A stretch of 46,466 bases of DNA from Halococcus salifodinae DSM 8989. Its GTDB lineage: Archaea > Halobacteriota > Halobacteria > Halobacteriales > Halococcaceae. The stretch covers positions 303,815 through 350,280 of the forward strand of contig NZ_AOME01000070.1 in NCBI RefSeq assembly GCF_000336935.1. The letters are read 5' to 3'. Under the pieces are notes generated by a model that had not been told where the DNA came from, made no database searches, and was given only the letters and a program-made list of their open reading frames with translations. Position 1 is the stretch's first letter. Each line of letters opens with the position of its first letter. The position numbers and the translations under genes are program-made. Shown here piece after piece: positions 15,075 through 33,837 of the stretch.

Positions 15075-16091
15075 TCAGAACTCGACGGTTTCGAGGATGC
15101 CGTCCTGAATCCGCACCGCTTGAGGCAGATAGTAGTCTTCGAGCGCGTGGAGTGGCATCGGCGCGTCGAGGCCTGCAATCCGCTTTATCGGGGCCTTTTG
15201 GTACATGAGCGCCTCTTCCTGAATCGTCGTAGCGATCTCCGCACCGACGCCCGCAGTTTTCGGTGCCTCGTGGACCACCGCCGCACGACCGGTCTTCTCG
15301 AACGACGCCACGACGGTCCCGACGTCGAGCGGCGACAGCGTCCGAAGATCGACCACCTCGCAGTCCACGCCGTGCTCGTCGGCGAGGTTGTCGGCGGCGA
15401 TCAGCGTCGGGCGGGTCATCGCGCCCCACGTGTACACCGAGATATCGGATCCCTCGCGGCGGACCGAAGCCTCGCCCAGCGACACCTCGTAGGAGTTCTG
15501 GGGAACGTCCTCGCGGAACGCGCGGTAGATGAGCTTGGGTTCGAGGAACACGACGGGATCGGGGTCCCGGATCGCCGCGGTCAGCAGTCCCTTGGCGTCG
15601 GCGGGCGTGCTCGGAATCACTACTTTGAGGCCCGGTTCGTGAACGAAGAAGGCCTCCTTCGACTCGGAGTGGTGTTCGGGCGCGCGGATCCCGCCGCCGT
15701 AGGGCGCGCGGACCACCATCGGGCAGGTGTACTGGCCGTGGCTCCGGCTCCGAAGTCGCGCTGCGTGACTCACGAGCTGGTCGAATGCGGGGTACATGAA
15801 TCCCATGAACTGCATCTCCGCGACCGGCCGCAGCCCCGAGAGCGCGAGCCCGATCGCCGAGCCCACGATCCCCGATTCGGCGAGCGGCGTGTCGACCACG
15901 CGCCCGCCGCCGAACTCCTCCATGAGCCCCTCGGTCGCGCGGAACACCCCTCCATTTTTGCCGACGTCCTCGCCGAGCACCATCACTCGGTCGTCGCGCT
16001 CCATCTCGGTGTGGAGCCCCTCTCGAACCCCCTCAACGAGTGTCAGGCGCTCGGTCGGCGATCCCGCCTCCGTGGCCGCCGCCGAACTCAT
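15075..16091 (-). CDS. 2-oxoacid dehydrogenase E1 component, beta subunit
   Basis: The 338-residue product matches E1-beta of pyruvate/branched-chain 2-oxoacid dehydrogenases: VMVLGEDVGKNGGVF near residue 37, TPLAESGIVGSAIGLALSG near 68, VVRAPYGGGIRAPEHHSES near 127, and the C-terminal transketolase domain with CEVVDLRTLSPLD. With E1-alpha it forms the alpha2beta2 ThDP enzyme that decarboxylates a 2-oxoacid and passes the acyl group to lipoyl-E2. ATG 16091 overlaps the alpha stop by four bases (ATGA). No E2, E3 or lipoate gene follows; the next gene downstream is unrelated. Confidence 0.9.
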   Translation of the reverse strand: MSSAAATEAGSPTERLTLVEGVREGLHTEMERDDRVMVLGEDVGKNGGVFRATEGLMEEFGGGRVVDTPLAESGIVGSAIGLALSGLRPVAEMQFMGFMYPAFDQLVSHAARLRSRSHGQYTCPMVVRAPYGGGIRAPEHHSESKEAFFVHEPGLKVVIPSTPADAKGLLTAAIRDPDPVVFLEPKLIYRAFREDVPQNSYEVSLGEASVRREGSDISVYTWGAMTRPTLIAADNLADEHGVDCEVVDLRTLSPLDVGTVVASFEKTGRAAVVHEAPKTAGVGAEIATTIQEEALMYQKAPIKRIAGLDAPMPLHALEDYYLPQAVRIQDGILETVEF

Positions 16092-17236
16092 CCCAACACC
16101 TCCGCGAACGCGTCGTCGCCGTACTTCTCACGGAGCGCGTTCAGCTCGTCGAGCTGTTCTTGGAGCCGATCGGGCGTCTCCTCGTAGACGTGCTCGACCA
16201 TCCGCTCGGGGGACGTCTCGGCTCTCTCGGCAGTCTCGATCGCCGCGCTGACCTCGTCCTCGACCCGGGCCTCGATCACGGCCTCGCGCTCCGCGTCGAG
16301 GACGTCGGTCTGATAGAGGTAGGTTTCGAGGCGATCGAGCGGGTCGCGGTCGCGCCACGTCTCGCTCTCGGTCTCGTCGCGGTAGACCGAGGGATCGTCG
16401 GAGGTGGTATGGGCACCGTAGCGGTACTGGACCGACTCGATGAGCGTCGGTCGGCGCTCGTCGTCGGTGGGGGCCTTCGCCTTCTTGATCGCCGCGCGGG
16501 TGACCGCGTACACCGCGAGCGGGTCCATCCCGTCGACCCGGACGCCCTCGACGCCGTACGCGTGGGCCTTCTCCGCGATGGTCCCGCTCGCGGTCTGGCG
16601 CTCGCGGGGCATGGAGATCGCCCACTGGTTGTTGTTGCAGACGAACACCGCGGGCACGTCGAACACGCCCGCGAAGTTGAGCCCCTCGTGGAAGTCACCC
16701 TCGCTGGTCGCGCCGTCGCCGAGGTGACACAGGACGGCCGTGTCGTCGTTGCCCTGAAGGAGCTGTCCCCACGCCATCCCCATCGCCTGGGGGACCTGAG
16801 TCGCGATCGGGATGTACTCCGGCATGAGGTTGACGTCCTCCGGCACGGAGTACCCCTCACGGTAGCCTCGGAGCGTTTTCAGTAGCGTCGCGAGATCGGC
16901 TCCGTGGACGTACTTCGCGGCGTGGTCCCGATACGTGGGGAACAGCCAGTCCTCGTCGTCGAGCGCGTGACTGGTGGCGACCTGGGATCCCTCCTGACCG
17001 GTCATCGGTGCGTAGGTCGCGATCCGCCCCTGGCGCTGGAAGCTCACCGCCCGCTGATCGAAGTGGCGCGCGAGCTTGATGTCCGCGTACATCTCGAGGA
17101 GTTCCGCCTCGGACAGCGCCGGCGGCTCGGCGCTCGACAGGAGGTGGCCGTCGTCGTCGAGGACGCGAATGGGCTCGTCGCCTGACTGGGCGGCTCCGAT
17201 GCTGTGCTGGTAGTCGGCGTCGTCTTGGGTGCTCAT
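16088..17236 (-). CDS. 2-oxoacid dehydrogenase E1 component, alpha subunit
   Basis: The 382-residue product is the ThDP-binding E1-alpha. The ThDP/Mg motif runs from GDGATSEGDFHEGLNFAGVF to VCNNNQWAIS, and TYRDHAAKYVHGADL and the phosphorylation-loop-like YRYGAHTTSDDPSVYR are present. ATG 17236 is preferred over an upstream in-frame start at 17287, because the conserved haloarchaeal N-terminus (STQDDADYQHSIG) begins there. Substrate (pyruvate, branched-chain or another 2-oxoacid) cannot be told from these motifs. Haloarchaea often carry several such E1 pairs, and many also use ferredoxin-dependent oxidoreductases for pyruvate. Confidence 0.9.
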   Translation of the reverse strand: MSTQDDADYQHSIGAAQSGDEPIRVLDDDGHLLSSAEPPALSEAELLEMYADIKLARHFDQRAVSFQRQGRIATYAPMTGQEGSQVATSHALDDEDWLFPTYRDHAAKYVHGADLATLLKTLRGYREGYSVPEDVNLMPEYIPIATQVPQAMGMAWGQLLQGNDDTAVLCHLGDGATSEGDFHEGLNFAGVFDVPAVFVCNNNQWAISMPRERQTASGTIAEKAHAYGVEGVRVDGMDPLAVYAVTRAAIKKAKAPTDDERRPTLIESVQYRYGAHTTSDDPSVYRDETESETWRDRDPLDRLETYLYQTDVLDAEREAVIEARVEDEVSAAIETAERAETSPERMVEHVYEETPDRLQEQLDELNALREKYGDDAFAEVLG

Positions 17237-17805
17237 TGGTGGTCTGGTTCGGTCGGCTGGCTGTTGGCTGCTCGTTCGGTGCGACATCGGTGAGGACGGT
17301 CGAGTGGGCCAGACGTCGTCATCGACGCTCGCTCGAACGGTGGACCGTCACGGTGAGCCCGATCCATCCGGCTGCGACCGGCGAACGAACGCCGCGTCGC
17401 GGTCACGATGTACCGGGATGGCGCGTGTTCGGAGATCCGCCAGCATAACTGTAAATTTCCCAATCGCGCTAAGGGCGGCGCTAGAGCGCCACGATGGCTG
17501 GATAGCAGCGCGAATCGATGGTTCGCTGGCGGAAACCATACACTCCAATCGTGGGGGATAGAACATAATAGTTTCGTGACTCCAGTTCACACGGAGATAC
17601 CACCCGGAAATCGCGGAGTTTCTCCGCCGATACCGTCCCACTCTGGCGATAATTTCGAATAGCACGACACGCGAACGACGACTGCTGTTGTGGTGGCGGT
17701 GGTAGTGTCACTGGCTATCGACTGTTACGTGTGCCGGAAAACAGCGCTCCTGCTCGTCCGTTTTCCGGCGCAAGATTTTATTCCGTTCCTGCCAGTAAGA
17801 TCATC
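17237..17805. other. Divergent intergenic region, 569 bp, no gene seen
   Basis: This space separates the E1-alpha start (minus) and the MBL-fold start (plus). It has moderately lower GC in 17440-17660 and short frames in all directions without family resemblance. The only clear signal is the TATA-like box next to the MBL gene. I see nothing else I can support. Confidence 0.5.
17776..17782 (+). promoter_or_regulatory. TATA-like box for the MBL-fold gene
   Basis: TTTTATT lies 24-30 bp upstream of ATG 17806. It supports that start over an upstream in-frame ATG at 17731. Confidence 0.5.
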
Positions 17806-18709: not shown

Positions 18710-20074
18710 TCAGCCCACGAGCCCGAGCTGGGCACTCGCGCCGAGCAGCCCGAAGACGATCACGAGCAGTGTGGCGACGGCGTAGTACGCTTTCGCCCCA
18801 GAGCCGGGCTGGAACTGGGCGGGGAGGTGCTCACGAACGATGTAGTAGTTGGCGATGTAGTAGAAAAACTGGAAGACCGAGACCATGATCGCCGCCCCCA
18901 CGACGAGCGTGACCGGTAGCGAGCCGATGACGAGCAGGGGAACGAAGCTGATCACGGCCATCAGAACGACGAGCGTCTTGCGGACCCGCTCGGTGTCCAT
19001 CTCGCGTTCGAGCACTAGGGGCAGGATGTCGCTCGCGACTCGGGGTGCGCCATCGAGAAGGGTGATGACCGTCGAGTAGAGCGCGGCGAACGCGCCGATG
19101 ATCATCGCCCAGTAGGCCCACGGCCCGAACGATGCCTCCAGAATGGAGCCGAGCGCGATGGCGAGGTTCTGGTCGGTCGGCGGGTTCGGGTAGAGCACGT
19201 TCGCCCCGAGCAGGATCATCGCGACGATGAGGACGAACGTGAACGCGTACGCGAGGTTGAAATCGCGGCGACCAGTCTTGATCCACGCCGCGATGTAGTC
19301 GTGGAAGCGCTCGTCGTGGGGATCGAGGTCCCGCTCGCGGAGTGCGCGTGCGCCCTGCTCTTTCGCCATCGACCAGCTCGCGAGGTTGATCGTGGTGCCG
19401 AGGCCGGTCGGCGCGAACCCCGCCATCGAGGCGAACAGCCCGAGGAACACCGCCGACCGGAGCTCGGGCACGGCGAATGCGGTCTCGGCGATCACCTCGG
19501 CCGAGGGCGGCGCGACGAAGATGCCGAGCACTAACAGGACGCCGAGCAACACGACGAACAGTTTGAGAACCGTTTCGAGCAGGCTGTACCGCGAGGAGAC
19601 GACGAGGACGGTCGCGACAACGAGGAGGAGAGCGTACGCCGGAAGCCGCCCGAGGCCGGGGACGACCGCCGAGAGGAAACTGGCCGCCGCGACCCCGACC
19701 GAGCCGGCAATGATCGTCTGGGGAACGACGACGATGAGCAGCGTCACCCACTGCGCCCAGTGATTTGGTCCCGGTAAGTCGCCGTACCCCTCGACGGGGT
19801 TGCGTCCGACGCCGTAGTTGTACCTGACGCCGAGCTCCCAGCCGCCGTATTTCACGAGGAACACCGCCGCCGCGATCCAGATGGCGAAAACGCCGTAGAG
19901 CCCGCTGAGCGTCGGTGCGAGCACGATATGGCTCGATCCGATCGCGGTCAGCGCCCACAGCAACGAGGGCCCGAAGTGGTTCCGGAAGAACCCGCCCCAG
20001 CTCTCGGCGGGGTAGTTCAGCTCCTCGCCGACTCGTTCCTCCTCCGTCGTCGCGTCATCGATGCTTGTTGCCAT
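18710..20074 (-). CDS. Nramp-family transporter lacking the canonical metal-binding motifs
   Basis: The 454-residue product has about eleven hydrophobic helices and the Nramp/LeuT-fold layout. In helix 1 the usual DPGN metal-binding motif is replaced by GSSH (ALTAIGSSHIVLAPTLSG, residues 41-58). In helix 6 the usual MPH is replaced by ASMAGFAPTG (215-224). Canonical Nramp proteins use those residues to bind Mn or Fe. This protein therefore belongs with divergent Nramp-related transporters and may carry Mg, another ion or an organic solute. ATG 20074 fits the conserved start; an upstream in-frame extension is not protein-like. It is divergent from a ThDP-enzyme gene, with 258 bp between. Confidence 0.82.
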   Translation of the reverse strand: MATSIDDATTEEERVGEELNYPAESWGGFFRNHFGPSLLWALTAIGSSHIVLAPTLSGLYGVFAIWIAAAVFLVKYGGWELGVRYNYGVGRNPVEGYGDLPGPNHWAQWVTLLIVVVPQTIIAGSVGVAAASFLSAVVPGLGRLPAYALLLVVATVLVVSSRYSLLETVLKLFVVLLGVLLVLGIFVAPPSAEVIAETAFAVPELRSAVFLGLFASMAGFAPTGLGTTINLASWSMAKEQGARALRERDLDPHDERFHDYIAAWIKTGRRDFNLAYAFTFVLIVAMILLGANVLYPNPPTDQNLAIALGSILEASFGPWAYWAMIIGAFAALYSTVITLLDGAPRVASDILPLVLEREMDTERVRKTLVVLMAVISFVPLLVIGSLPVTLVVGAAIMVSVFQFFYYIANYYIVREHLPAQFQPGSGAKAYYAVATLLVIVFGLLGASAQLGLVG

Positions 20075-20332: not shown

Positions 20333-22033
20333 ATGACGAAAGTTAGCACGGAGATCGTTCGAACTCTGGAACGTCTCGACGTTGAGTACCTGTTCGGCTA
20401 TCCCGGTGGGCGGGCCATCGAACTCCTCGAAGCACTCGCCGGATCGGACATCGAGGTCGTCAGGCCTCGCGACGAGCGCGAGGCGAGCGTGATGGCCGAG
20501 ATGTACGGCCGATTCCATCGGAAACCTGGTGTTCTCACCGGCCAGGGGCCGTGGATCGGCTCCATCGGTGCGATCGGCCAGATGGAAGCCAGGCTCGGCT
20601 CGTCGCCGATGGTGGCCATTACCGAGGCCTCAGAGCGCGGCGACTACTCGACGCTCGCGCCCTACCAGCAGGCCCGCGGCGACTATGGAGGGTTCGCGCT
20701 CCCGAAGATCCTCGACGGCATCACCAAGGAGTGGTGGTTCCCGCGGACGGCGAACGAGACCCTCCGATCCACGCAGCTCGCGTTCAAACACGCCACCGCC
20801 GGCCGGCCGGGCCCGACAGCGGTGATTCTCGACGGCGACGCCGTCACCGCCGAAGTCTCCGAGAACGATGACCCGCCCACGCTCTGGTCGCCCGAAGAAC
20901 AGACGAAAAACTGGGAATCGAGCCCCACAGCGACCGACGTCGAACGCGCGGCCGACCATCTCGCGAACGCCGACCGCCCAGTCATCATCGCGGGCAACGG
21001 CGTTCACGCCGCGGGGGCCTACGACGAACTCGAAGCGGTCGCCGAGACCTACGACGCCGTGGTGACGACCTCGTATCTCGGCAAATCGACCATCGCCGAA
21101 ACCCACGACCTCGCGGCGGGCGTCATCGGCTCCTTTGGCCACGAGGGCGCGAATCAGGCGGTGAGCGAGGCCGACACGCTGCTCGTGGCCGGCTGCCGGC
21201 TGAACCCGATGGACACCAATTGGCAGGCAGCATCGTTCATCCGTCCCGACGAGCAGACCATCCTCCACGCCGATATCGACACCCGGAACGCGGGCTGGGT
21301 CTACCCTGCCGACGTCGGGCTGATCGGCGACGCGAAGCACAGTCTGAACGCGCTCGGAGAGGCCGCCGCGGCGTTCGCGCCAGGCAACGACTGGGCGCGC
21401 GACCGGGCCAGCGACGCCCGCGAGTCGTTCCGGGTCCCCGAATGCGAATCGGACGACGAGCCGATCCTGCCCCAGCGCGCGGTCGCGGCGATCGACGGGA
21501 TCGTGGACGAGGATACCCTCGTGACCGCGGACTCGGGCAACAACCGGTTTTGGTTGCTCAACTACCTCCAAACGCCCGCCCGGCGGACCTACTTCGGCAG
21601 CGGCGGCGTCGGCGGAATGGGGTGGGCCGGCCCCGCAGCGGTCTCGGCGGCGATCACCACCGACAGGGACGTGGTCTCGGTCGCGGGCGACGGCGGCTTC
21701 ACGATGACGATGACCTGCGTCGAGACCGCGGTCGAGTACGGCGTCGCGCCGACGTTCGTGGTGCTCAACGACACCAGTTTGGGGATGGTGCGCCAGATGG
21801 ACGACGAGATTCCTGGCGTCGACTTCCACGACACCGACTTCGTTCAGGTCGCCGAGGGGTTCGGGGCCGAGGGACTCCGCGTCCGCTCGCCCGATGACCT
21901 CGCGGATCGGCTCAAGGAGGCAAAGGCGGCCGACGTGCCCACCGTGGTCGATGTCCGGATCGACCGCGACGAGGAGATGGTCGACGCGCTCCAGTCGTCC
22001 TTTTACGAAGAGGTCGGCGGGCTCCACGAGTAG
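20333..22033 (+). CDS. Thiamine-diphosphate-dependent enzyme, acetolactate synthase-like
   Basis: The 566-residue product has the three domains of the pyruvate-oxidase/acetolactate-synthase family. The N-terminal Pyr domain has the catalytic Glu in RDEREASVMAEMYGR, near residue 51. A central Rossmann-like domain includes RPVIIAGNGVHAAGAYDEL. The C-terminal PP domain has the ThDP/Mg motif GDGGFTMTMT...VVLND. It should cleave or form a carbon-carbon bond next to a carbonyl, by decarboxylation, carboligation or lyase action. Anabolic IlvB is normally followed by ilvN and ilvC; here it heads a different cluster, so a catabolic role is more likely. ATG 20333 was chosen as the start of the conserved N-terminus. 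Confidence 0.85.
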   Translation: MTKVSTEIVRTLERLDVEYLFGYPGGRAIELLEALAGSDIEVVRPRDEREASVMAEMYGRFHRKPGVLTGQGPWIGSIGAIGQMEARLGSSPMVAITEASERGDYSTLAPYQQARGDYGGFALPKILDGITKEWWFPRTANETLRSTQLAFKHATAGRPGPTAVILDGDAVTAEVSENDDPPTLWSPEEQTKNWESSPTATDVERAADHLANADRPVIIAGNGVHAAGAYDELEAVAETYDAVVTTSYLGKSTIAETHDLAAGVIGSFGHEGANQAVSEADTLLVAGCRLNPMDTNWQAASFIRPDEQTILHADIDTRNAGWVYPADVGLIGDAKHSLNALGEAAAAFAPGNDWARDRASDARESFRVPECESDDEPILPQRAVAAIDGIVDEDTLVTADSGNNRFWLLNYLQTPARRTYFGSGGVGGMGWAGPAAVSAAITTDRDVVSVAGDGGFTMTMTCVETAVEYGVAPTFVVLNDTSLGMVRQMDDEIPGVDFHDTDFVQVAEGFGAEGLRVRSPDDLADRLKEAKAADVPTVVDVRIDRDEEMVDALQSSFYEEVGGLHE

Positions 22034-22101
22034 CCGAGGGCCTCACCCGCTTCACCGGAACAGCACAACCTTTTTGCCGATTTCCGCCGATTCCCGAATC
22101 G

Positions 22102-23076
22102 ATGGCAACCAACGAAACCGTCCTCGTGACTGGTGGCACCGGGTTCATCGGCTCCTACGTCGCGAAGGACCTCATCGACGCCGGCCACGACGTGGTCGCG
22201 TACGACCTCTCGACCGACGATCGAATTCTCTCGAAGCTCGGCGTTGCGGACGACGTCACGATCCGGCGCGGTGACGTGAGCGAGGCGACGGACGTCGTGA
22301 ACGCGGTCGCCGAGACCGGTGCGACCCACATCGTCCATCTCGCGGCGCTGTTGACGAACACCGCCGAGTCGAACCCCCGCGCCGCCCTCGACGTCAACGT
22401 CCAGGGGACGAGCAACGTCTTCGAGGCGGCGCGCACTCTCGACGATCAGATCGAGCGCGTCGCGTGGGCGTCTTCGGCGGCGATCTACGCCCCGCCGCAC
22501 AACTACGACGACGGCGGCGACTGGTGGGTCACCGAGGACGATCTCGTCTATCCCGATACGCTCTACGGCGCGACGAAGGGGTACAACGAACACCAGGCGC
22601 GCGTCTACAACGAGGAGTACGGCGTCGACCACGTCGCCATCCGGCCGACCGTCGCATACGGTCCCTACCGCGAGACCGGCGGGTCGGCCTTTCTCGCGAA
22701 CATCATCGAGAAACCCGCGCTCGGTGACTCCTTCTCCGTGGAGTACGGCGACCAGGAGATCGACTGGCAGCACGTCGAGGACATCGCCCAGGCGTTCCGC
22801 CTCGCGGCGTTCACTTCCGAAGACGACCTCTCCCAGCGGATCTACAACGTCCGCGGCGAACTCGCATCCATCCAGGAAGCCGCCGACACCGTTCGGGGGA
22901 TCGTCCCCGACGCCGACCTCGAAGTGAGCGGCGAGGGCGAGCTGCCGTGGACCCAACGCCTCGACATGACCGCGTTCCAGGAGGACACGGGCTACGAGGT
23001 ACAGTACGACCTCGAAGCCGGCTTCCGGAAGTACATCGACGTGCTCCGCGAGGAGAACGGACTCGACCCGCTCTGA
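22102..23076 (+). CDS. NAD-dependent epimerase/dehydratase, extended SDR family
   Basis: The 324-residue product has the extended SDR fold. The NAD-binding motif is VTGGTGFIGSYVAKDL near residue 9, the acidic residue binding NAD ribose is in VAYDLST, and the active-site YGATKGYNE gives Tyr-x3-Lys near 155 with WASSAAIYAPP upstream. Relatives act on nucleotide sugars, on sugar acids or on small hydroxy compounds. It lies 68 bp after the ThDP-enzyme gene on the same strand and may act on that enzyme's substrate or product. No nucleotide-sugar genes are nearby, so a catabolic dehydrogenase role is at least as likely as an epimerase role. Confidence 0.85.
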   Translation: MATNETVLVTGGTGFIGSYVAKDLIDAGHDVVAYDLSTDDRILSKLGVADDVTIRRGDVSEATDVVNAVAETGATHIVHLAALLTNTAESNPRAALDVNVQGTSNVFEAARTLDDQIERVAWASSAAIYAPPHNYDDGGDWWVTEDDLVYPDTLYGATKGYNEHQARVYNEEYGVDHVAIRPTVAYGPYRETGGSAFLANIIEKPALGDSFSVEYGDQEIDWQHVEDIAQAFRLAAFTSEDDLSQRIYNVRGELASIQEAADTVRGIVPDADLEVSGEGELPWTQRLDMTAFQEDTGYEVQYDLEAGFRKYIDVLREENGLDPL

Positions 23077-23114
23077 TCGCGTTCGGTTCGTTTCACAGCA
23101 AACAGACTAAAACC

Positions 23115-23714
23115 TCAGTCGGTCGTCTGGCTGTACTCGTCGACCCACTCGTTCAGGGTGATCCCCATCGCGGACTGGGTGATGGCGTTCGACGACGCCG
23201 AGTTGGCGCTTTTGAGGAGTTCGGCCTCCAGCGTGCGTTTCGGTACTTCCCCAAGGAAGTGGGGGATCGCGCGCTGCACAGTAAGGGGAACGCCGACCTC
23301 GTGGGCGAGCGCGTAGCCCGAGAGCGAGTGTGGGATCTCCTCGGAGGCGTAGCGTTCACGGTCGGTCCCCGAGAGGCGTTCGGCGTCGACGTGATCGACG
23401 TACTCGTAGCACTTCCCGACGTCGTGGAGCAGGCAGGCCGCGACGAGGACGTCGACATCGGGATCGGCGTCGTGGAACTCGCGCTGGACCCGTGCCGATT
23501 CGAGCGCGATCTTCGTCACACCGCGGACGTGCTCGACGTTCGTGATCTCGTGGATGTTCCACGCGTACGGGATGTCTTCGATGTCCTGCCAGCCGCCACG
23601 GTCGAGCCCGAGCGTCCACGCCTCGACGACCGCTTCCCTGAGGTCGGCGCTCTCGATCCGATCGAGTTCGGGGTAGGCCTCCCGGACCTGGTTCTCGTAG
23701 TCCGGTGTCCCCAT
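23115..23714 (-). CDS. HD-domain phosphohydrolase-like protein
   Basis: The 199-residue protein has the HD metal-binding signature: NVEHVRGVTKIALES gives the first His, LLHDVGKCYEYVDH the HD pair near residue 96, and later His residues in EIPHSLSGYALAHEVG complete the site. The family hydrolyses phosphate esters, nucleotides or related bonds, and some members oxidise or cleave non-nucleotide metabolites. It starts at ATG 23714, one base after the stop of the EthD gene, so the two are cotranscribed and probably work on connected substrates. Confidence 0.85.
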   Translation of the reverse strand: MGTPDYENQVREAYPELDRIESADLREAVVEAWTLGLDRGGWQDIEDIPYAWNIHEITNVEHVRGVTKIALESARVQREFHDADPDVDVLVAACLLHDVGKCYEYVDHVDAERLSGTDRERYASEEIPHSLSGYALAHEVGVPLTVQRAIPHFLGEVPKRTLEAELLKSANSASSNAITQSAMGITLNEWVDEYSQTTD

Positions 23715-23715
23715 C

Positions 23716-24450
23716 TCAGTACCCCTCGACGTCCTCGGTCTCGTTCTTCCAGACTTTCTCCTCGCCGATGAAGCGGGGGCGGCGTTCGACGTCGAGGAAG
23801 TTGTTGACGTCCTCACGGGCCTCCGCAGCCACCTCTCGAGTCGGATCGTAATCCCGGCTGCCCTCGCTGCCGAGGGCCTCGTGGAGATCGTCGAGCGTCT
23901 CGAAGTACAGCTCCGCGACCCCGTCGAACTCGGCGTTTTCGGGGTCGGTGGGGTACACAGTTTGATAGCGGACGACACCCTCGATGTCCTTCGCGAGCGG
24001 GGAGTGATTGCCCTCCCAGTACTCGCGGAACTCCTCGTGACTCATTCCTTCCTGTCGAACGAGAAACGCCGAGTGCTTGTAGAGCCCGTCGGTCTCGCCG
24101 TCCACTTCGTCCTTCCAGACCTTCTCTTCGCCGATGAATCGGGGGCGGCGTTCGACGTCGAGGAAGTTGTTGACGTCCTCACGGGCCTCCGCAGCCACCT
24201 CCCGAGTCGGATCGTAATCCCGACTGCCTTCGCTGCCGAGCGCCTCGTGGAGATCGTCGAGTGTCTCGAAGTACAGCTCCGCGAGTCCATCGAATTCGGC
24301 GTTTTCGGGGTCGTTTGGATAGACGGTCTGATAACGGACGACACCCTCGATGTCCTTCGCGAGCGGAGAATGGTTTCCCTCCCAGTACTCGCGAAACTCC
24401 TCGTGACTCATCCCCTCCTGCCGGACCAGCAACGCGACGTGCTTGAACAT
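23716..24450 (-). CDS. Tandemly duplicated EthD-domain protein
   Basis: The 244-residue protein is exactly two 122-residue EthD units (dimeric alpha+beta barrel, ferredoxin-like). Each unit has LVRQEGMSHEEFREYWEGNHSPL-type sequence at the start, FDG.AELYFETLDDL in the middle and VERRPRFIGEEKVWK at the end. Single EthD proteins usually dimerise; here two halves joined in one chain could form the barrel alone. Known EthD-fold enzymes include monooxygenases, 4-methylmuconolactone methylisomerase and decarboxylase-like enzymes of catabolic pathways. The conserved His in GNHSPL is the likely functional residue. It is divergent from the M24 gene and directly followed by the HD gene. Confidence 0.88.
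   Translation of the reverse strand: MFKHVALLVRQEGMSHEEFREYWEGNHSPLAKDIEGVVRYQTVYPNDPENAEFDGLAELYFETLDDLHEALGSEGSRDYDPTREVAAEAREDVNNFLDVERRPRFIGEEKVWKDEVDGETDGLYKHSAFLVRQEGMSHEEFREYWEGNHSPLAKDIEGVVRYQTVYPTDPENAEFDGVAELYFETLDDLHEALGSEGSRDYDPTREVAAEAREDVNNFLDVERRPRFIGEEKVWKNETEDVEGY
23765..24435 (-). repeat. 366-bp tandem duplication inside the EthD gene
   Basis: Bases from 23765 and from 24131 align with a 366-bp offset. By eye I count about 29 differences over roughly 305 aligned bases, most of them at silent positions. The two protein halves differ at only a handful of residues apart from the linker and the C-terminal end. Confidence 0.9.
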
Positions 24451-24566
24451 CTCATCCGGGCGTTCGGCGGCTCGTGTGATAAAATCACCGGGGTCGGTCG
24501 AATCCTGGAGCGGCCGACCGTTCAGTCGTCCGGCTCGATCCGCTCGGCTTTGCCGAGGTGGTGGGA

Positions 24567-24574
24567 TTTATGTA
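24567..24574 (+). promoter_or_regulatory. TATA-like box for the M24 gene
   Basis: TTTATGTA lies 28-35 bp upstream of ATG 24602, within the 151-bp divergent space shared with the EthD gene. It rules against the longer in-frame start at 24443. Confidence 0.55.
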
Positions 24575-24601
24575 CGATCTGGCGAACCATCCAGACGAAC
24601 G

Positions 24602-25870
24602 ATGTACGAACGAAGCTTCATGGAGGGAACGCGGGGAACTCAAGCTGTGGACTGGGAGGAGCGCATCGACGTCAAGCGCATGCGCGAGGAGCGCTACGAG
24701 AAGGCCCTGGAACGACTCCAGGACTCGGAGCTCGGCTCGATGCTCCTGGTCTCGGACCCCAACATCCGGTACGTCACCGGACTCGCGATGACTGGCGGAA
24801 GCGGGGCGGACCACTACACGCTGCTCACCGAGAACGGTGACGTGGTCCACTGGGACACCGCGGATCACGCCTCGAACCAGCGATTCAACTGCCCGTGGCT
24901 CGACGACATCCGGTACGCTGCCCCTGGTCTCGGGAACGTCCCGCGCGCGTCGGGCCGCGACTCCGCGCGCGGCTTCCTGACCCAGAAGATGGCGAGTCTC
25001 GTCGAGGAGGCGATGGCGGAGTACGGCGTCGCCAAGGAACCGATGGGGCTCGACGTCGGGAGCACAGGACTAGTCGACGCCTTCGAGTCGGACGGCGTCG
25101 ACGTTCGGACGAAGGAGTGCGTCGACCTGATGCACGACGCACGAAAGATCAAGACCAAAGACGAGATCGAGTGTCTCCGAATGGTCGCGGCGATCTGCGA
25201 GGCGGGGTTCCAGAAGATCACCGAATCCGCCCGGCCAGGCAAGCGCGAATCCGAGGTCTGGGGCGACGCGGTGGGCGAACTCTGGCGACACGGCGCGATG
25301 GCCCAGGGCGGGTACGTCACCAGCGGGCCGAACACGTGGCCGAAACACCAAGCGAACACCACCGACCGGATGATGCGACCGGGCGACATCGTCTACGCCG
25401 ACTTCTACAACATCGGCTATCTGGGGTATCGGTCCTGCTACTACCGCACGTTCTCGATGGGTGAACCCACGCAGGCCCAGCAAGACGCCTACGAGACCGC
25501 CCGCGACAACCTCTACGACGTCCTCGAACGCATCGAGCCAGGCGCGACCACCGACGAGATCGCGCAGGGGTTCCCGGACATGGAAGGCGAGCACGCCGAC
25601 TGGTACGACGCCGACGAGCACTGGCAGATGACGACGAATCACTGGGCGCACGGCCTCGGCCTTCAGCTCTACGAGGTCCCGCTGATCTGGCGGGGGCTCT
25701 CGCCGGAGCACCCGATCGAGATCGAGGAGGGGATGACGATGGCGGTCGAGACGATGGAGCCGGCCGATCGTCAGGGCGTCCGGGTCGAGGAGATGGTCGT
25801 CGTCCGCGAGAACGGCGTCGAAATCTTGAGTCAATGGCCAGTCGAGGAGATCACCCGAATCGACTACTGA
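24602..25870 (+). CDS. M24-fold (pita-bread) enzyme with an altered metal site
   Basis: The 422-residue product has the creatinase N-terminal domain (LLVSDPNIRYVTGLAMTGG, residue 49 on) and a C-terminal pita-bread domain. Of the five usual metal ligands, Asp267 (VYADFYN), His350 (NHWAHGLG), Glu383 (MAVETMEP) and Glu396 (GVRVEEMVVV) are present. The second Asp (normally in S-D-x-T-R) is Cys279 (GYRSCYYRTF). The family includes Xaa-Pro peptidases, creatinase (which has lost metal binding) and DddP-type DMSP lyase, whose N-terminal arrangement is similar. The enzyme therefore may not be a peptidase. It is divergent from the EthD-HD pair, and all three flank the ThDP and SDR genes. Confidence 0.82.
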   Translation: MYERSFMEGTRGTQAVDWEERIDVKRMREERYEKALERLQDSELGSMLLVSDPNIRYVTGLAMTGGSGADHYTLLTENGDVVHWDTADHASNQRFNCPWLDDIRYAAPGLGNVPRASGRDSARGFLTQKMASLVEEAMAEYGVAKEPMGLDVGSTGLVDAFESDGVDVRTKECVDLMHDARKIKTKDEIECLRMVAAICEAGFQKITESARPGKRESEVWGDAVGELWRHGAMAQGGYVTSGPNTWPKHQANTTDRMMRPGDIVYADFYNIGYLGYRSCYYRTFSMGEPTQAQQDAYETARDNLYDVLERIEPGATTDEIAQGFPDMEGEHADWYDADEHWQMTTNHWAHGLGLQLYEVPLIWRGLSPEHPIEIEEGMTMAVETMEPADRQGVRVEEMVVVRENGVEILSQWPVEEITRIDY

Positions 25871-26206: not shown

Positions 26207-27211
26207 ATGCAACTCGGTACCGGACTGTTCACCGGCCAGCGCCGCCCCGACGACGACCGATCGATGAGCGAGCTCTACGACGAGATGCTCACGCTCGGGC
26301 GCGCGATCGACGACGCCGGACTCGACAGCGCGTGGGTCTCCGAGCACCACTTCGCCGAGGACGGCTATCTCTCGGGGACGATGCCCGTTCTCGGGGCGCT
26401 CGCGGCCGCCACCTCCGACATCGAGATCGGGACGTGCATCGCGCTCGCGCCGCTCTATGATGGCGTCCGTCTCGCCGAGGACGCCGCGACGGTCGACCTC
26501 CTTTCCGATGAGCGGCTCACACTCGGTCTCGCGATCGGGTCGAACCCCGACGAGTTCGAGCAGTTCGGCGTTCCGATCGAGGAGCGCGCCGAGCGGCTTG
26601 CGGACCAAGTGAACCTTCTCCGGGCGGCGTGGTCCGACGGTCCACTCGATTACGACGCCGAGTTCCACGACGTCGCGCCCGACGTCACCGTGACCCCGAA
26701 ACCCGATCGTGAGGTTCCGCTGATGCTCGGCGGCGCGGCGAAGCCGGCTGTCAGGCGGGCCGCCCGGACCGCCGACGCGTGGTGTGCGCCCTCGAAGCTC
26801 TCGCTCACCGGGCTGGAAAAGCGCGTCGAGGACATTCGTGATGTTCGCGCCGAGGAGGACATCGACGGCGAGTTCACAGTCTATGCGCTCCAGCACGGCT
26901 GGGTCGGCGACTCGCGCGAAGAGGCGTGGGAGACGATGAAACCAGGCTACTTCTACATACAGCGCCGCTACGCCGAGATCTTCTCGGGCGAGCCGGTCGA
27001 TGAGCTCCCCGACGAACGCAAACAGGAATTGAAAGACCAGGCGATCTTCGGCACGCCCGACCAGGTCGCCGACGAGCTCGACCGCTACCGCGAGGCCGCT
27101 GGCGACGACGTTCACTGCGTGTTCCGTACGTACCACCCGGGTGTCGGCACCGACGCGATGGCCGAGTGTATCGAGCGACTCGGCACCGAAGTCGCACCGA
27201 AACTCCGCTGA
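26207..27211 (+). CDS. Luciferase-like (LLM) flavin-dependent oxidoreductase
   Basis: The 334-residue TIM-barrel protein matches the bacterial luciferase-like family: QLGTGLFTGQRRPDDDRSMS at the start, DSAWVSEHHFAEDGYLSGTM, IGTCIALAPLYDGVRLAEDA, and PLMLGGAAKPAVRRAARTADAW for phosphate or cofactor binding. It should oxidise or mono-oxygenate a substrate with FMN or reduced F420. The cofactor cannot be told, but haloarchaea have F420, and its ligase gene cofE lies in this window. A catabolic monooxygenase role fits the surrounding genes. It is followed closely by a convergent IclR regulator gene. Confidence 0.85.
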   Translation: MQLGTGLFTGQRRPDDDRSMSELYDEMLTLGRAIDDAGLDSAWVSEHHFAEDGYLSGTMPVLGALAAATSDIEIGTCIALAPLYDGVRLAEDAATVDLLSDERLTLGLAIGSNPDEFEQFGVPIEERAERLADQVNLLRAAWSDGPLDYDAEFHDVAPDVTVTPKPDREVPLMLGGAAKPAVRRAARTADAWCAPSKLSLTGLEKRVEDIRDVRAEEDIDGEFTVYALQHGWVGDSREEAWETMKPGYFYIQRRYAEIFSGEPVDELPDERKQELKDQAIFGTPDQVADELDRYREAAGDDVHCVFRTYHPGVGTDAMAECIERLGTEVAPKLR

Positions 27212-27238: not shown

Positions 27239-28036
27239 TTACTCGGGTCGGCCGCCCTCCTCGTTCGAGGCGTACCGGAGGTGGATGTGGATCTCGTCGA
27301 TCGCGGCGAGCAGTTTGTCGGGCAGCTCCTCTCGGAGGAGGTCGCCTTTCACCCGATTCGCGGGACCGGAGATGCTGATCGCGCCCACCGGATAGCCGTC
27401 GGCGTCGCGGATCGGCGCGCCGACCGCGTTCAGCCCCGTGATCGACTCCCCACGATTGAACGCGTAGCCGCGCTCGTCGATCCCGTCGAGTTCGCCGAGC
27501 AGCTCGTCGCGCTCGGTGATCGTGTGCTCGGTCTGTTCGGGGAGGCCACAGTGATCGAGAACGTCCCGAACTTCTTCATCGGGGAGCTGTGAGAGGATCG
27601 CCTTCCCGGCGGCGAGCTGGTGGAGATATCGTCGCTGGCCGACCCGTGCGGAGGTTTCGAGCGGGTTGTCGCCGTAGGACTTGTAGAGGTGGACGCTGAA
27701 ACGGCCGTCCTTCGCGACCAGCCAGACCTTCTCGTCGGTCTCGGACGCCAACCGATCGACGAGCGGGCGGGCGGCGTGATAGAAGTCGATCCGGTCGCGC
27801 GCGCGCATCCCGAAATCGAGCAACCGGAGTCCGAGGTGGTACTCGCCGTCCGTCCGACGGACGAGGTCGTTGTCTTCGAGGGTCAGGAGGTGGCGATGGA
27901 TGGTGCTTCGGGCCATCTCGAACTCGTCGGCGAGTCCCGCGAGACTCAGCCGTCCGTTGGCCTTCAGGAGTTCGAGGATCCGGATGGAGGTTTCGGTGGT
28001 GGTTACCGGACGATTCGACCGTTCGTTGCCGGACAT
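27239..28036 (-). CDS. IclR-family transcriptional regulator
   Basis: The 265-residue product has the N-terminal winged HTH (SIRILELLKANGRLSLAGLADEFEMARSTIHRHLLTLEDND, cited in part) and the C-terminal IclR ligand-binding domain (VGQRRYLHQLAAGKAILSQLPDEEV, RGYAFNRGESITGLNAVGAPI, GAISISGPANRV). IclR proteins bind small organic acids or aromatic compounds and control catabolic or transport operons. ATG 28036 opens the conserved N-terminus. Its likely targets are the divergent or adjacent genes: the luciferase-like gene, the symporter or the Liv-type ABC operon. This is inferred from position. Confidence 0.9.
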   Translation of the reverse strand: MSGNERSNRPVTTTETSIRILELLKANGRLSLAGLADEFEMARSTIHRHLLTLEDNDLVRRTDGEYHLGLRLLDFGMRARDRIDFYHAARPLVDRLASETDEKVWLVAKDGRFSVHLYKSYGDNPLETSARVGQRRYLHQLAAGKAILSQLPDEEVRDVLDHCGLPEQTEHTITERDELLGELDGIDERGYAFNRGESITGLNAVGAPIRDADGYPVGAISISGPANRVKGDLLREELPDKLLAAIDEIHIHLRYASNEEGGRPE

Positions 28037-29727: not shown

Positions 29728-30225
29728 TCACTTCTCGGCCGATTCGAACGTCGGCCACGCCGCCTCGACCCGGCGGCCGCCGACGAACGACTGATCTGGG
29801 TCGTAGCGTTCCTCGTAGGTGTCGTGGTACTCCATCAGCTGAAACAGGGTCCCGGTAGGGTTGCGCGGCGAGACGAACAGTTCGGTGTAAACCTCGTGTT
29901 CCGCCCGATCGACCACGGTGACGCCGGCGTCGGTCAGCGCCGCGGCCACGGCGTCGATGTCGGCGACTTCGCACGTGACGTGATGCAGGCCGGGCCCGTT
30001 CGCATCGAGGAACTCCTCCAGAAAGCTTCCCTCGGCGAGCGGCGTGATGAGTTCGAGTCGCGAGGCGTCGCCGAGGATGTAGCCGACCCACCGGAACTCC
30101 TCGCCCGGACCGGTGTCGTCGACGTACTTCTCCGCGCCGAGCGCGTGGAGGACGGCCTCGGCCGCTTCGAACTCCTCGACCGCGATCCCAATGTGATCGA
30201 TCCGGATCGGGGTCTCGTGGGTCAT
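29728..30225 (-). CDS. VOC-family protein, methylmalonyl-CoA epimerase/glyoxalase-like
   Basis: The 165-residue protein has two beta-alpha-beta3 modules of the vicinal-oxygen-chelate fold. Metal ligands expected from the family are visible: DHIGIAV, a Glu in LELITPL, HHVTCEV, and a Glu in LFQLMEYHD. The length and layout are similar to methylmalonyl-CoA epimerase (about 130-150 residues), but a C-terminal extension (YEERYDPDQSFVGGRR) is atypical of that enzyme. It could also be a glyoxalase or extradiol-dioxygenase-like protein. It precedes the Liv ABC operon in the direction opposite to operon flow, as its own transcript. Confidence 0.8.
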   Translation of the reverse strand: MTHETPIRIDHIGIAVEEFEAAEAVLHALGAEKYVDDTGPGEEFRWVGYILGDASRLELITPLAEGSFLEEFLDANGPGLHHVTCEVADIDAVAAALTDAGVTVVDRAEHEVYTELFVSPRNPTGTLFQLMEYHDTYEERYDPDQSFVGGRRVEAAWPTFESAEK

Positions 30226-30369: not shown

Positions 30370-31092
30370 CTATTCGATCGCTCCCACGCCGAGGTGGCGA
30401 TCGAGGAGCTCGTCGTCGTCTCGCACCGCCGCAGCGGGACCGCTGTGGACGATCTCGCCGTGGGCGAGGATATGCGCGTGGTCCGCGACGTCGAGCGCAA
30501 CCGGGATGTTCTGCTCGACCAGCAGGACGGTGATCCCGTCGTCGTTCAACTCCCGGATGATGGCCTCGATCTCCCGGACGATGAAGGGTGCGAGCCCCTC
30601 GGTGGGTTCGTCGAGCAACAGGAGATCGGGATCGGCGACGAGTGCCCGTGCGATCGCGAGCATCTGCTGCTCACCGCCCGAGAGCACCGAGCCGTAACTC
30701 CCCTCACGCTCTCGGAGGTTCTCGAATCGGTCGAGTACCGCGTCGACTGAGGGACCACCCTCGGTCGGCACGCCGTGCTGCCCCATCTCGATGTTCTCCC
30801 GTACGGTGAGTCCGGGGAAAACCCGCCGATCTTCCGGGACGAACGTGATTCCTTTCCGAACTGTGTTCTCGGTCGCGAGCCCCGTGATCTCCTCGCCGTC
30901 GAAGGTGATCCGGCCGCTCGTGGGACTGAGGTTGCCGACGATCGACCGGAGCGTCGTGGTCTTGCCGACCCCGTTGCGACCCACCAGCGCGACCACCGAC
31001 CCGCGGTCGACGTCGAAGCTCACGCCCTGGAGCACCTCGGTCAGCCCGTAGCCCGCGTGGACGTCCTCGACCGCAAGCAGCGGGTCGCTCAC
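30370..31092 (-). CDS. livF: Branched-chain amino-acid-type ABC transporter ATP-binding protein (LivF)
   Basis: The 240-residue ATPase has Walker A VGRNGVGKTT (near residue 37), Q-loop FVPEDRRVFPGL, signature LSGGEQQMLAIARAL, Walker B LLLLDEPTEGL and H-loop VEQN (LLVEQNIPVAL). The LivF-specific LVEQN pattern and PEDRRVFPGLT support the assignment. It starts with GTG at 31092, overlapping the livG stop by four bases. With LivG it powers the fused permease for uptake of amino acids, amides or related organic acids. Confidence 0.92.
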   Translation of the reverse strand: MSDPLLAVEDVHAGYGLTEVLQGVSFDVDRGSVVALVGRNGVGKTTTLRSIVGNLSPTSGRITFDGEEITGLATENTVRKGITFVPEDRRVFPGLTVRENIEMGQHGVPTEGGPSVDAVLDRFENLREREGSYGSVLSGGEQQMLAIARALVADPDLLLLDEPTEGLAPFIVREIEAIIRELNDDGITVLLVEQNIPVALDVADHAHILAHGEIVHSGPAAAVRDDDELLDRHLGVGAIE

Positions 31093-31853
31093 TGACGGAC
31101 ACCCCCGAGATACGCGTCGCGCACGTCGTCGTCCCCGGCGATCGATTCCGGCGATCCCTCCGCGAGCACCTCGCCGCGGGTGAGGACCGTGATCCGATCC
31201 GAGACTCGCATCACGAGGTCGATGTCGTGCTCGATCAGGAGCAAACTTCGATCGGCGAGCACGTCCTCGATCAGGTCCATCGTCGCCCGGGTCTCCTCGC
31301 TGCTCATCCCGGCGGTGGGTTCGTCCAGCAGCACGAGGTCGGGATCGGTCGCGAGCACGATCCCGATCTCCAGCCGGCGCTGGTCGCCGTACGCGAGCGT
31401 CTCGGCGCGCTCGTCGGCGTGGCTCGCGAGGCCGATCCGGTCGAGCACCTCGTCGGTGTGTGCGGCAACGTCCCCGAACGAGTTCTTGTCACGGAACATC
31501 GCGTCGCGGCCGGAGATATCGTCGTCGAAAATCGACTGAGCCGCGAGTCGGACGTTCTCTCGGACCGCGAGGCCGCCGAAGACGTTCGTGATCTGGAACG
31601 ATCGGCCGAGCCCGCGCCGCACCCGATCGTGGGAAGGAAGGTTTGTGATGTCTTCGCCGCGGAACCACACCGTGCCCTCGGTGGGCGAAAGCGCGCCGGT
31701 GATGCAGTTGAACAGCGTGGTCTTGCCCGCACCGTTCGGCCCGATGACGCTCCGGAACTCGCCGGCCTCCACTGTCAAATCGACGCGATCAACCGCGGTC
31801 AGTTCGCCGAAGCGCTTCGTGATCCCCTCGGTTTCGAGCACGGCATCAGTCAT
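31089..31853 (-). CDS. livG: Branched-chain amino-acid-type ABC transporter ATP-binding protein (LivG)
   Basis: The 254-residue ATPase has Walker A IGPNGAGKTTLFNCITG near residue 37, Walker B LVLLDEPTAGMSSEET, and the LivG-type long insertion between Q-loop (RSFQITNVFGGL) and signature (LAYGDQRRLEIGIVLA). The signature Tyr-Gly-Asp-Gln variant is typical of LivG. Its ATG at 31853 overlaps the permease stop by eight bases, so translation is coupled. It is part of the LivK-HM-G-F operon. Confidence 0.92.
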   Translation of the reverse strand: MTDAVLETEGITKRFGELTAVDRVDLTVEAGEFRSVIGPNGAGKTTLFNCITGALSPTEGTVWFRGEDITNLPSHDRVRRGLGRSFQITNVFGGLAVRENVRLAAQSIFDDDISGRDAMFRDKNSFGDVAAHTDEVLDRIGLASHADERAETLAYGDQRRLEIGIVLATDPDLVLLDEPTAGMSSEETRATMDLIEDVLADRSLLLIEHDIDLVMRVSDRITVLTRGEVLAEGSPESIAGDDDVRDAYLGGVRQ

Positions 31854-33831
31854 CCGGGCTCACCTCCGTATCGTCGAGCCCGGCGGGTGGGTCACCCTCC
31901 TGGCTATCCCGCCACCGCGCCACGAGCGACGGGATCGAGACCAGGCCACGGGGGACGAACAGCACGAACAGCACGAACACCGCCCCGATCACCATGCGCC
32001 ACTGCTCGGTGTAGGTCGCGAGAACGTCTTCGGCACCGATGAACACCCCGGCACCGATCATCGGTCCGAACAGGGTTCCCATCCCCCCGAGCAGCGTCAT
32101 CACGATAACCTCGCCGGAGTTGATCCAGTAGAGTGTCTGATCCGGCGAGATCACGAACGTGTCGGGGTTCACCGCGAGCAGCCCGCCGGCGAGCCCCGCG
32201 AGCGCGCCGCTGATGACGAACGCGCGGCGCTTGTATTTCGTGACGTCGTACCCGATGAACTCCGTTCGCTCCTCGCTCTCGCTGATCGACTGGAGCACGC
32301 TGCCGAAGGGTGCGTTCATGAACCGCCGTGCGAACAGCAGCGCGGCGACCGCGAGGACGAGCGCGAGGTAGTAGAACACCGCCGCCGGTGTGATCGTCAA
32401 CCCCGCGAGCGTGAACTCGACTTCGGAGATCGGGGCTCCGACACCACCGATCCCGAGGAACGCGTCGAACCCGAGCAGCCCGTCGCTCCCGCCGGTCCAG
32501 TCGAGCTTGAACACCGCGTTGTAGAACAACTGAGCGAACGCGAGCGTGATCATCGCGAAGTACACCCCCGACACCCGGATCGAGAGGTTACCGACGACCC
32601 ACGCCACGACCGCACAGATCGCCATCGCACCGACGAGCGCGATCAGGAAGGAGGGCGCGAGGTGGAGCAGGACGAGCGCCGCAACGTACGCACCGATGCC
32701 GTAGAACATGGTGTGGCCGAGCGAGACGAGTCCGGCATAGCCCATCACGAAGTCGAGACTGAGCGCGAAGATCGCCCAGATGAAGATCTCGTTCAGCAGC
32801 GTCACGTAGTAGTCGTTGCCGGTCGCCAGCAGCACGATCGGAATCACCGCGAGTAGCGCCACCACCGCGATTCCGAGCCGTTCGCGGGTCTCCCGCGCGA
32901 ACACCCCGCCGTGCGCTCCGATCAGGAGCTCGCCTTCGTCCGACTCGGTGGTCTGCCACTCGGGGTTGCCGAACAGTCCCTGGGGCTTCAGGAGGAGCAC
33001 ACCGATCATCAACAGGAAGATCGTCAGTCCTTCGAGCACGGGAACGTACGTCCGGGTCATCGTCTGGATGACGCCGACGAGGAGCCCGCCGAAGACCGCC
33101 CCGCGGAAGCTCCCGAGGCCGCCCAGTACGACGATGATGAACGCGGGAATGATGACGCCGTTGCCCATCCCTGGGTTGACGTTCTGATATCCCCCAAGAA
33201 CGATCCCGCCGACCGCGGCGAGCGCGGCCCCGAAGCCGAAGACGAGGGTGTAGTACCGATCGATGTCGATACCGAGGTTTCGCACCATCTCGCGGTCCTG
33301 CGAGCCCGCCCGCACGATCGTCCCGTACGTGGTTCGATTCAGGACGAGCCACGTCCCGATCGCGAGCACGGCTCCCACGAGGATCATGAAGTAGTTGTAC
33401 ACCGAGAGCCGAACGCCGAAGACGGCGATCGACTGGTTGAGGACGTCGGGGACGGTGAGCTGGTGCTGGGAGGTGCCCCAGACGAGTTGAATGAGGTCAC
33501 TGATGATGAGCACCAGCCCGAACGTGAGGAGGATGTGATAGAGGGGGTCCCGGCCGTACAGCGGTCGGACGGTGAACCGTTCGATGGCCGCACCGATCAC
33601 GCCCACGAGTAGTGGCGCGACCACGAGCGCGACCCAGAAGCCGGTCGCGCCGAGCGGGGTGACGATGCTGAGTGCGAAGTACGCCCCCAGCGCGAACAGC
33701 TCGCCGTGCGAGAAGTTGATGACGTCCATCACGCCGAAGATGATCGACAGCCCCGCCGCCAGCAGGACGTACACCATCCCGAGGGTGACGCCGTTCACGA
33801 GCTGTTCGACGAAGGCGGATACGGATACCAT
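31846..33831 (-). CDS. Fused LivH-LivM ABC permease
   Basis: The 661-residue protein contains two complete permease domains. Residues about 1-300 are LivH-like (LAAGLSIIFGVMDVINFSHGE). Residues about 330-645 are LivM-like (LSLDFVMGYAGLVSLGHTMFYGIGAY). A cytoplasmic linker near 295-320 ends in a hydrophilic stretch (ESDEGELLIGAHGG). LivH and LivM are normally separate proteins of about 300 residues each; here one gene encodes both, giving an internal heterodimer. It is preceded by livK with a short gap and overlaps livG. Confidence 0.9.
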   Translation of the reverse strand: MVSVSAFVEQLVNGVTLGMVYVLLAAGLSIIFGVMDVINFSHGELFALGAYFALSIVTPLGATGFWVALVVAPLLVGVIGAAIERFTVRPLYGRDPLYHILLTFGLVLIISDLIQLVWGTSQHQLTVPDVLNQSIAVFGVRLSVYNYFMILVGAVLAIGTWLVLNRTTYGTIVRAGSQDREMVRNLGIDIDRYYTLVFGFGAALAAVGGIVLGGYQNVNPGMGNGVIIPAFIIVVLGGLGSFRGAVFGGLLVGVIQTMTRTYVPVLEGLTIFLLMIGVLLLKPQGLFGNPEWQTTESDEGELLIGAHGGVFARETRERLGIAVVALLAVIPIVLLATGNDYYVTLLNEIFIWAIFALSLDFVMGYAGLVSLGHTMFYGIGAYVAALVLLHLAPSFLIALVGAMAICAVVAWVVGNLSIRVSGVYFAMITLAFAQLFYNAVFKLDWTGGSDGLLGFDAFLGIGGVGAPISEVEFTLAGLTITPAAVFYYLALVLAVAALLFARRFMNAPFGSVLQSISESEERTEFIGYDVTKYKRRAFVISGALAGLAGGLLAVNPDTFVISPDQTLYWINSGEVIVMTLLGGMGTLFGPMIGAGVFIGAEDVLATYTEQWRMVIGAVFVLFVLFVPRGLVSIPSLVARWRDSQEGDPPAGLDDTEVSPDD

Positions 33832-33837
33832 GAGGGT

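Follow-up and report, generated by a model that had tools for sequence, protein, structure and literature searches.

What do five genes of unlike folds, packed into 5.6 kb of a haloarchaeal genome, have to do with one another? The question is raised by positions 20,333–25,870 of a 46,466-nucleotide stretch of Halococcus salifodinae DSM 8989 DNA (contig NZ_AOME01000070.1; host genome 4.2 Mb), hereafter the window, where genes for a thiamine diphosphate (ThDP)-dependent acetolactate-synthase-like enzyme, an NAD-epimerase-type short-chain dehydrogenase/reductase (SDR), an HD protein, a tandem EthD protein (EthD2) and an M24-fold protein lie side by side. A preliminary description had read them as a possible undescribed catabolic pathway for a specific compound. 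We find that these five genes and a sixth, encoding a luciferase-like monooxygenase (LLM)-type flavin oxidoreductase, almost certainly form one functional unit. On balance, we favour the view that the six genes are an accessory catabolic module of the haloarchaeal phenylacetyl-CoA (PAA) catabolon, acting as an upstream arm. The basis for this assignment is all-or-none co-inheritance of the genes, their strict nesting within genomes that encode PaaA, and their frequent clustering with paa genes. The coordinates and strands of the five genes were as first described, and all five domains score above their Pfam gathering thresholds.

We searched 292 haloarchaeal genomes with the M24 (E ≤ 1e-30), ThDP (E ≤ 1e-90) and HD (E ≤ 1e-30) proteins. 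Each was found in 95 genomes spanning 32 genera, and the three genome sets, compared by script, are identical. The ThDP matches in these carriers are at 67% identity or above, with only G195 at the low end. The tandem EthD protein has a strong match in 94 of the 95 carriers; in the exception, G222, one HD match begins at base 8 of a contig, where the EthD gene would sit, and the gene has probably been cut off by the contig edge. Once weak single-EthD matches are counted, EthD proteins occur in 125 of the 292 genomes. The SDR and LLM, as well as PaaK, MaoC and a 2-oxoacid dehydrogenase E1, were scored in 71 chosen genomes, comprising 38 carriers, 21 genomes with PaaA and no module (PaaA-only) and 12 with neither. 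Taking matches of at least 67% identity, the SDR is present in 38/38 carriers and in none of the 33 non-carriers (0/21 PaaA-only, 0/12 neither; G025 has a 47% match). The LLM is present in 37/38 carriers, 1/21 PaaA-only genomes and 0/12 with neither, so 1/33 non-carriers, a 31% match in G264 being left out of the count; the exceptions are carrier G030, which lacks it, and PaaA-only G143, which has it at 60%. Given G030, the LLM may be replaceable. Fisher values, which ignore kinship, are 5e-21 for the SDR and 7e-18 for the LLM. In genomes of one genus (g12; G033, G071, G167, G181 and others) a single stop codon falls inside the HD match, possibly a start-side read-through artefact.

Two observations address how such a pattern could arise. 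In genus g1, G002 and G006 lack all module genes and seven other genomes carry the module; among the members listed, G110 is the sole carrier in g8 and G030 the sole carrier in g9; and in g56, G143 lacks M24, ThDP, HD and tandem EthD. Since the whole block is gained or lost within genera, relatedness alone is a poor explanation of the co-occurrence. Nor is linkage its cause, because the pattern persists when the genes are scattered over megabases: among six genomes looked at, module genes and PaaA are spread over 3.6 Mb in G285, 3.1 Mb in G061 and 1.9 Mb in G284. The five genes thus stay together in other genomes, as a common pathway had been said to demand, by co-inheritance and often without adjacency. 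Mixed folds and the use of both strands might suggest chance neighbours without a common function; with identical or near-identical distributions over 32 genera, scattered loci and block-wise gain and loss within genera, we consider this scarcely credible.

The distribution of the module is tied to that of PAA catabolism. PaaA is encoded in 136 of the 292 genomes, and these include all 95 carriers (hypergeometric 2e-44, kinship ignored) and 41 genomes without the module; genomes thus have the paa core both alongside the module and by itself, but in no genome was the module found unless the core was there too. A paa-cluster MaoC protein, at 62% identity or more, occurs in 38/38 carriers, 20/21 PaaA-only genomes (G261 being the exception) and 0/12 with neither, indicating that at the MaoC step the core lacks nothing when the module is absent. 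The best NCBIfam match of this MaoC is the C-terminal part of PaaZ, at 56.3 bits, far below the full-length cut-off. As MaoC is common to carriers and PaaA-only genomes, we rejected the idea that the module replaces the oxepin step. A set-specific PaaK was likewise rejected, since the ligase is found in 36/38 carriers but also in 11/21 PaaA-only genomes (with one 35% match among the 12 with neither). In the window itself, paaABCD lie about 7 kb upstream of the ThDP gene, with NCBIfam scores of 305.9 against a cut-off of 280 for PaaA (TIGR02156), 183.5 against 150 for haloarchaeal PaaB, 166.2 against 133.35 for PaaC and 220.3 against 180 for haloarchaeal PaaD. The grouping first proposed is therefore real, but its interval was drawn too short: the LLM gene follows the module distribution, and paaABCD share the window.

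Gene neighbourhoods point the same way. In 40 neighbourhoods of 20 kb around M24 we found LLM in 32, HD and EthD2 in 26 each, SDR in 25 and ThDP in 24, followed by a hotdog thioesterase (16), PaaK (15), an IclR-type regulator (15) and a VOC protein (13); clustering of the open reading frames (ORFs) gave comparable, mostly lower counts. Around HD, in the best 80 of 90 matching loci (named, all haloarchaeal, some truncated at contig ends, and overlapping the M24 set in species), the counts were EthD2 66, SDR 46, M24 44, ThDP 39, LLM 30, IclR 29, PaaK 23, VOC 22, hotdog 21 and Liv-type ABC transporter 20, and the tandem EthD gene always or nearly always adjoins HD. Single super-clusters of module and paa genes exist in Haloferax, Natrinema and Haloarcula. 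In Haloferax gibbonsii and Haloferax alexandrinus the module is embedded in a single large cluster with the order Liv, LLM, VOC, MaoC, PaaI, PaaK, thiolase, zinc-ribbon protein, PaaH, enoyl-CoA hydratase (ECH), IclR, EthD, ThDP, SDR, cupin, HD, EthD2, M24, HyuB, HyuA and Nramp. Haladaptatus pallidirubidus has two HD loci (L152 and L177) about 550 kb apart on one chromosome, which share the order M24, VOC, Liv, EthD2, HD, SDR, ThDP and represent a duplicated module segment.

Other neighbours are optional, namely penicillin acylase and an aminotransferase with 2-oxoacid dehydrogenase E1. These could fit a phenylacetyl-CoA hub, but they could also be mere feeders of the paa core. An E1-alpha of the window type (at least 65% identity) was found in 10/38 carriers and 0/33 others, and with so few carriers E1 is better taken as an optional partner than as a core member. 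At one locus (L199, in G069) an aminotransferase, an SNF symporter, IclR, SDR, ThDP and E1 alpha/beta lie within 10 kb, away from M24 and HD.

Published expression data bear on the same genes. In RNA-seq of Haloferax alexandrinus DSM 27206 exposed to silver nitrate, the paa region was induced (PMC10694973). Its gene order is that of the module super-cluster in strain BNX82, and the genes that the accessible text reports to be induced by at least one level of silver are, in ORF order, mntH, hyuA, hyuB, pepQ, galE, ilvB, enoyl-CoA hydratase, paaH, pksG, paaJ, paaK, paaI, a MaoC-type hydratase, epi, a flavin-dependent oxidoreductase, paaI, putA and paaDCBA (PMC10694973). Judged by name and gene order, pepQ would correspond to M24, galE to the SDR, ilvB to the ThDP enzyme and the flavin-dependent oxidoreductase to the LLM; neither HD nor EthD2 is named in the accessible text. 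Constitutive, unrelated expression, which would have spoken against a shared pathway, is thus not what these data suggest: the apparent M24, SDR and ThDP counterparts rise together with the paa genes. We conclude that the module very probably belongs to the PAA regulon.

As far as its text is accessible, the silver study reads the region as serving silver tolerance, with pepQ and ilvB in amino-acid turnover, and proposes no pathway or module (PMC10694973). A stress or metal-tolerance operon would accord with the induction by silver nitrate, which extends to the Nramp-type gene of the cluster. However, the induced block consists mainly of degradative enzymes and Nramp is not conserved near the module, and we regard this explanation as improbable; co-induction indicates one regulon and does not demonstrate a stress function.

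What the six proteins might do was approached through their families. The M24 motif GYRSCYYRTF does not vary among 88 locus sequences, some of which are not independent of one another, so that the second metal Asp of M24 is Cys, while the remaining metal-ligand positions are conserved. M24 metallopeptidases such as prolidase and aminopeptidase P use the ligand set Asp, Asp, His, Glu, Glu; with Cys for the second Asp in 88/88 sequences, this set is incomplete here. The best NCBIfam match, aligned over most of the protein, is the dimethylsulfoniopropionate lyase DddP, an assignment rejected at 92.7 bits against a cut-off of 600 and with Cys at the second metal position. The same Cys occurs in all three bacterial homologues aligned, at ∼34% identity. 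Bacterial clusters with Cys-type M24 proteins (Phaeobacter, Tritonibacter, Streptomyces, Paenarthrobacter) contain E1/E2 and succinate-semialdehyde-type dehydrogenase genes, and in Streptomyces also LLM, flavin reductase and VOC genes; the stretches fetched held no HD, tandem EthD, module-type ThDP enzyme or paaABCD. On a plasmid of Paenarthrobacter sp. R1 (L110) the homologue lies near RidA, enoyl-CoA hydratase and sulR, the last a flavin reductase predicted for sulfonamide resistance. No lead came from the genes around distant M24 homologues (Rhodococcus, Haloarcula JP-L23) or from analogies with homarine and trigonelline.

The HD protein departs from its family in a comparable way. HD phosphohydrolases carry the ligand motif H...HD...D; the protein exceeds the Pfam HD cut-off and its four histidines and HD Asp are invariant, but the last motif Asp is Asn171 in 37/37 sequences. 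Its model (pLDDT 85.8) best matches YhaM (Z 13.6, root-mean-square deviation (rmsd) 3.7 over 163 residues), and its fold matches are generic phosphohydrolases. Neither HD nor EthD2 matched a PDB sequence at E 0.1 in phmmer searches. EthD2 is a tandem duplication of two EthD domains and exceeds both the Pfam and the NCBIfam cut-offs (TIGR02118, 88.4 against 30.5). The top match of its model (pLDDT 88.1) is the anthrone-oxidase-like 5f9p (Z 15.6, rmsd 3.5 over 209 residues); over one half, the model also matches single EthD and 4-methylmuconolactone methylisomerase (MmlI) structures, which share a common barrel. Its fold is matched by the EthD family, MmlI and bacterial chalcone isomerase, from which it differs by the tandem duplication; identity with MmlI was rejected at 23.4 bits against 180.

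Acetohydroxyacid synthase (AHAS)-type ThDP enzymes are recognized by a GDG motif and a catalytic Glu. The ThDP enzyme has the three TPP domains of this superfamily, with motifs conserved in 68 sequences, and shares with AHAS-type enzymes (IolD, BbmA) the fold, the ThDP domains and an invariant RDERE at the catalytic Glu position; BbmA is its best PDB match. Published work on BbmA gave no lead to its function, and a literature search on IolD turned up a single, unrelated paper. The enzyme differs from these relatives in conserved motifs of its own, such as the C-terminal SSFY..VGGLHE, and at no more than 311.9 bits, against 538.35 for the biosynthetic large subunit, it was rejected as either a biosynthetic or a catabolic acetolactate synthase. 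The nearest solved sequences are L-threonine 3-dehydrogenase and UDP-glucose 4-epimerase for the SDR and bacterial luciferase chains for the LLM, which scores below the cut-off of the F420 subfamily TIGR03619 (153.6 against 166.9 bits).

Taken with the nested distribution, which fits an upstream arm delivering phenylacetate or phenylacetyl-CoA, these folds suggest a scheme in which the module would convert a common aromatic compound, perhaps amino-acid-derived or nitrogen-containing, to phenylacetate or phenylacetyl-CoA, with epoxidation by PaaABCD to follow. Going by fold, the LLM might carry out an oxygenation or oxidation, the tandem EthD barrel an isomerization or rearrangement, M24 and HD the cleavage of a C–N or C–O bond, the SDR a hydroxyl oxidation, and the ThDP enzyme the breaking or making of a C–C bond leading to the phenylacetyl unit. 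None of the six families is a Paa enzyme of the catabolon (paaABCDE, paaK, paaG, paaZ, paaF, paaH, paaJ, paaI), and by distribution that pathway works without the module in 41/136 PaaA genomes; the module in turn occurs only with PaaA, clusters with PaaK, PaaH, ECH, thiolase and MaoC, and appears to be induced with the catabolon. We put the placement upstream, taken by itself, at an even chance or slightly better. Several points weigh against the explanation that we favour: the co-occurrence statistics ignore phylogeny, the LLM is missing from G030 and PaaK from two of 38 carriers at the threshold used, an arm of six genes would not usually be expected in as many as 95 of 136 PAA genomes if its substrate were peripheral, and the single-EthD gene that some PaaA-only genomes have next to paaABCD hints at a function close to the epoxide step.

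That last point belongs to a tentative alternative, in which the module is a downstream or salvage branch handling the PaaABCD product, whether the epoxide, the oxepin or a seven-membered-ring dead-end compound. IolD and cyclohexane-1,2-dione hydrolase reopen rings by C–C hydrolysis; correspondingly, the ThDP enzyme might reopen a cyclic ketone, with the EthD barrel as isomerase, a version that we hold with the same reserve. The nested distribution also fits this alternative. A single-EthD gene lies near paaABC in 2/10 PaaA-only loci fetched and overlaps or sits just before the ThDP gene in several carriers, and a paa cluster of Exiguobacterium contains an EthD gene, which prompted the suggestion of a route without oxepin-CoA (PMC9416434). 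However, the MaoC step tracks PaaA and not the module, 41 of the 136 PaaA genomes do without it, and G059, which lacks it, keeps PaaABC, MaoC, PaaK, PaaJ, PaaH and ECH together. Somewhat less likely still is a second, non-canonical fate of the phenylacetyl-CoA epoxidase product or a related ring, with the ThDP enzyme opening a cyclic ketone and EthD2, Cys-type M24 and Asn-type HD catalysing steps without a known PAA counterpart. Alternatively, PAA intermediates could be diverted to a tropone-type secondary metabolite; bacteria are known to branch the pathway in this way (PMC7497051), and such a branch would also be nested in PAA genomes. Nearby uptake systems, IclR, penicillin acylase and 2-oxoacid dehydrogenase point instead to catabolism, and six genes in 32 genera with such ThDP conservation would be much for a secondary product, making a biosynthetic branch quite unlikely. 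The catabolic pathway first proposed hence stands as a functional unit and, on the upstream reading that we prefer, narrows to an accessory of the phenylacetyl-CoA catabolon; the LLM and the PAA tie had been missed.

One part of the initial proposal, uptake of the substrate by the adjacent Nramp-like protein, is not supported. The gene lies upstream of and divergent from the ThDP gene in the window, but within 20 kb of M24 it occurs in 1/40 neighbourhoods and near HD in 0/80, and it was rejected as a conserved part of the module. The Nramp of the Haloferax cluster is no counterpart of it (22.5% identity, E 0.018). Nramp transporters carry DPGN and MPH motifs; neither was found in the window protein sequence, so the protein is possibly something other than a standard divalent metal transporter. 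Among transporter neighbours a Liv-type ABC system is met more often and is possibly the uptake system of the module.

The features of the window are collected in Table 1. The M24 ORF as called mechanically begins at 24443; the alignment of homologues starts at the ATG at 24602. On the 3' side of the module lie the LLM, the IclR regulator, a sodium symporter, the VOC protein and the Liv-type ABC transporter, of which one ATPase (31089–31853) matches LivG/UrtD models.

Table 1. Genes of the module and its surroundings in the window (scores in bits against the family cut-off)
Feature	Position	Strand	Length	Family evidence
paaABCD, phenylacetyl-CoA epoxidase genes	10994-13527	+		NCBIfam
2-oxoacid dehydrogenase E1 beta and alpha, optional partner	15075-17287	-		NCBIfam E1 alpha 428.9 vs 411.35
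Nramp-like transporter, non-conserved neighbour	18710-20074	-		Pfam Nramp 46.6 vs 29.8
ThDP-dependent acetolactate-synthase-like enzyme, core	20333-22033	+	566 aa	Pfam TPP_enzyme N/M/C
NAD-epimerase-type SDR, core	22102-23076	+	324 aa	Pfam Epimerase 146.3 vs 20.9
HD protein, core	23115-23714	-	199 aa	Pfam HD 41.7 vs 22
Tandem EthD protein (EthD2), core	23716-24450	-	244 aa	Pfam EthD 95 vs 22, two stretches
M24-fold protein, core	24602-25870	+	422 aa	Pfam Peptidase_M24 111.7 vs 23, plus Creatinase_N
LLM-type flavin (FMN or F420) oxidoreductase, sixth module gene	26207-27211	+	334 aa	Pfam Bac_luciferase
IclR-type regulator, frequent neighbour	27239-28033	-		Pfam IclR_C
VOC-fold protein, frequent neighbour	29728-30225	-		Pfam Glyoxalase_4
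Liv-type ABC transporter (two ATPases, fused permease, binding protein)	30370-35325	-		ORF content

Two further observations concern the window. Directly 3' of PaaD, at 13530–13703 on the plus strand, is a 57-aa zinc-ribbon-like ORF of a family that recurs in four loci; it presumably resembles the C-terminal ribbon of bacterial PaaD, and PaaD may be split in haloarchaea, with this ORF as the separate piece. At 38277–40044 (plus strand) a methylenetetrahydromethanopterin reductase-type LLM (463.7 bits against 276) is preceded by an apparent CofE gene, placing F420-related genes in the same window as the module.

We found no published description of the gene set in the open-access literature searched, in keeping with its being called undescribed. 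An alternative oxepin-CoA hydrolase has been described in bacteria (PMC9007349), and in the accessible part of another study phenylacetate is mentioned only for a transporter family (PMC3102087). A 2026 survey counts 32 PAA pathways in archaea, every one of them incomplete and from Halobacteria (PMC13186573); its accessible text mentions neither thiamine nor acetolactate nor peptidase. The module bears on these incomplete archaeal phenylacetate pathways, and it is present in cultured Haloferax species. M24, HD and ThDP each fall outside the definition of the nearest characterized family, and a six-gene set with an all-or-none distribution over 32 genera of haloarchaea gives a strong lead towards new enzyme chemistry.

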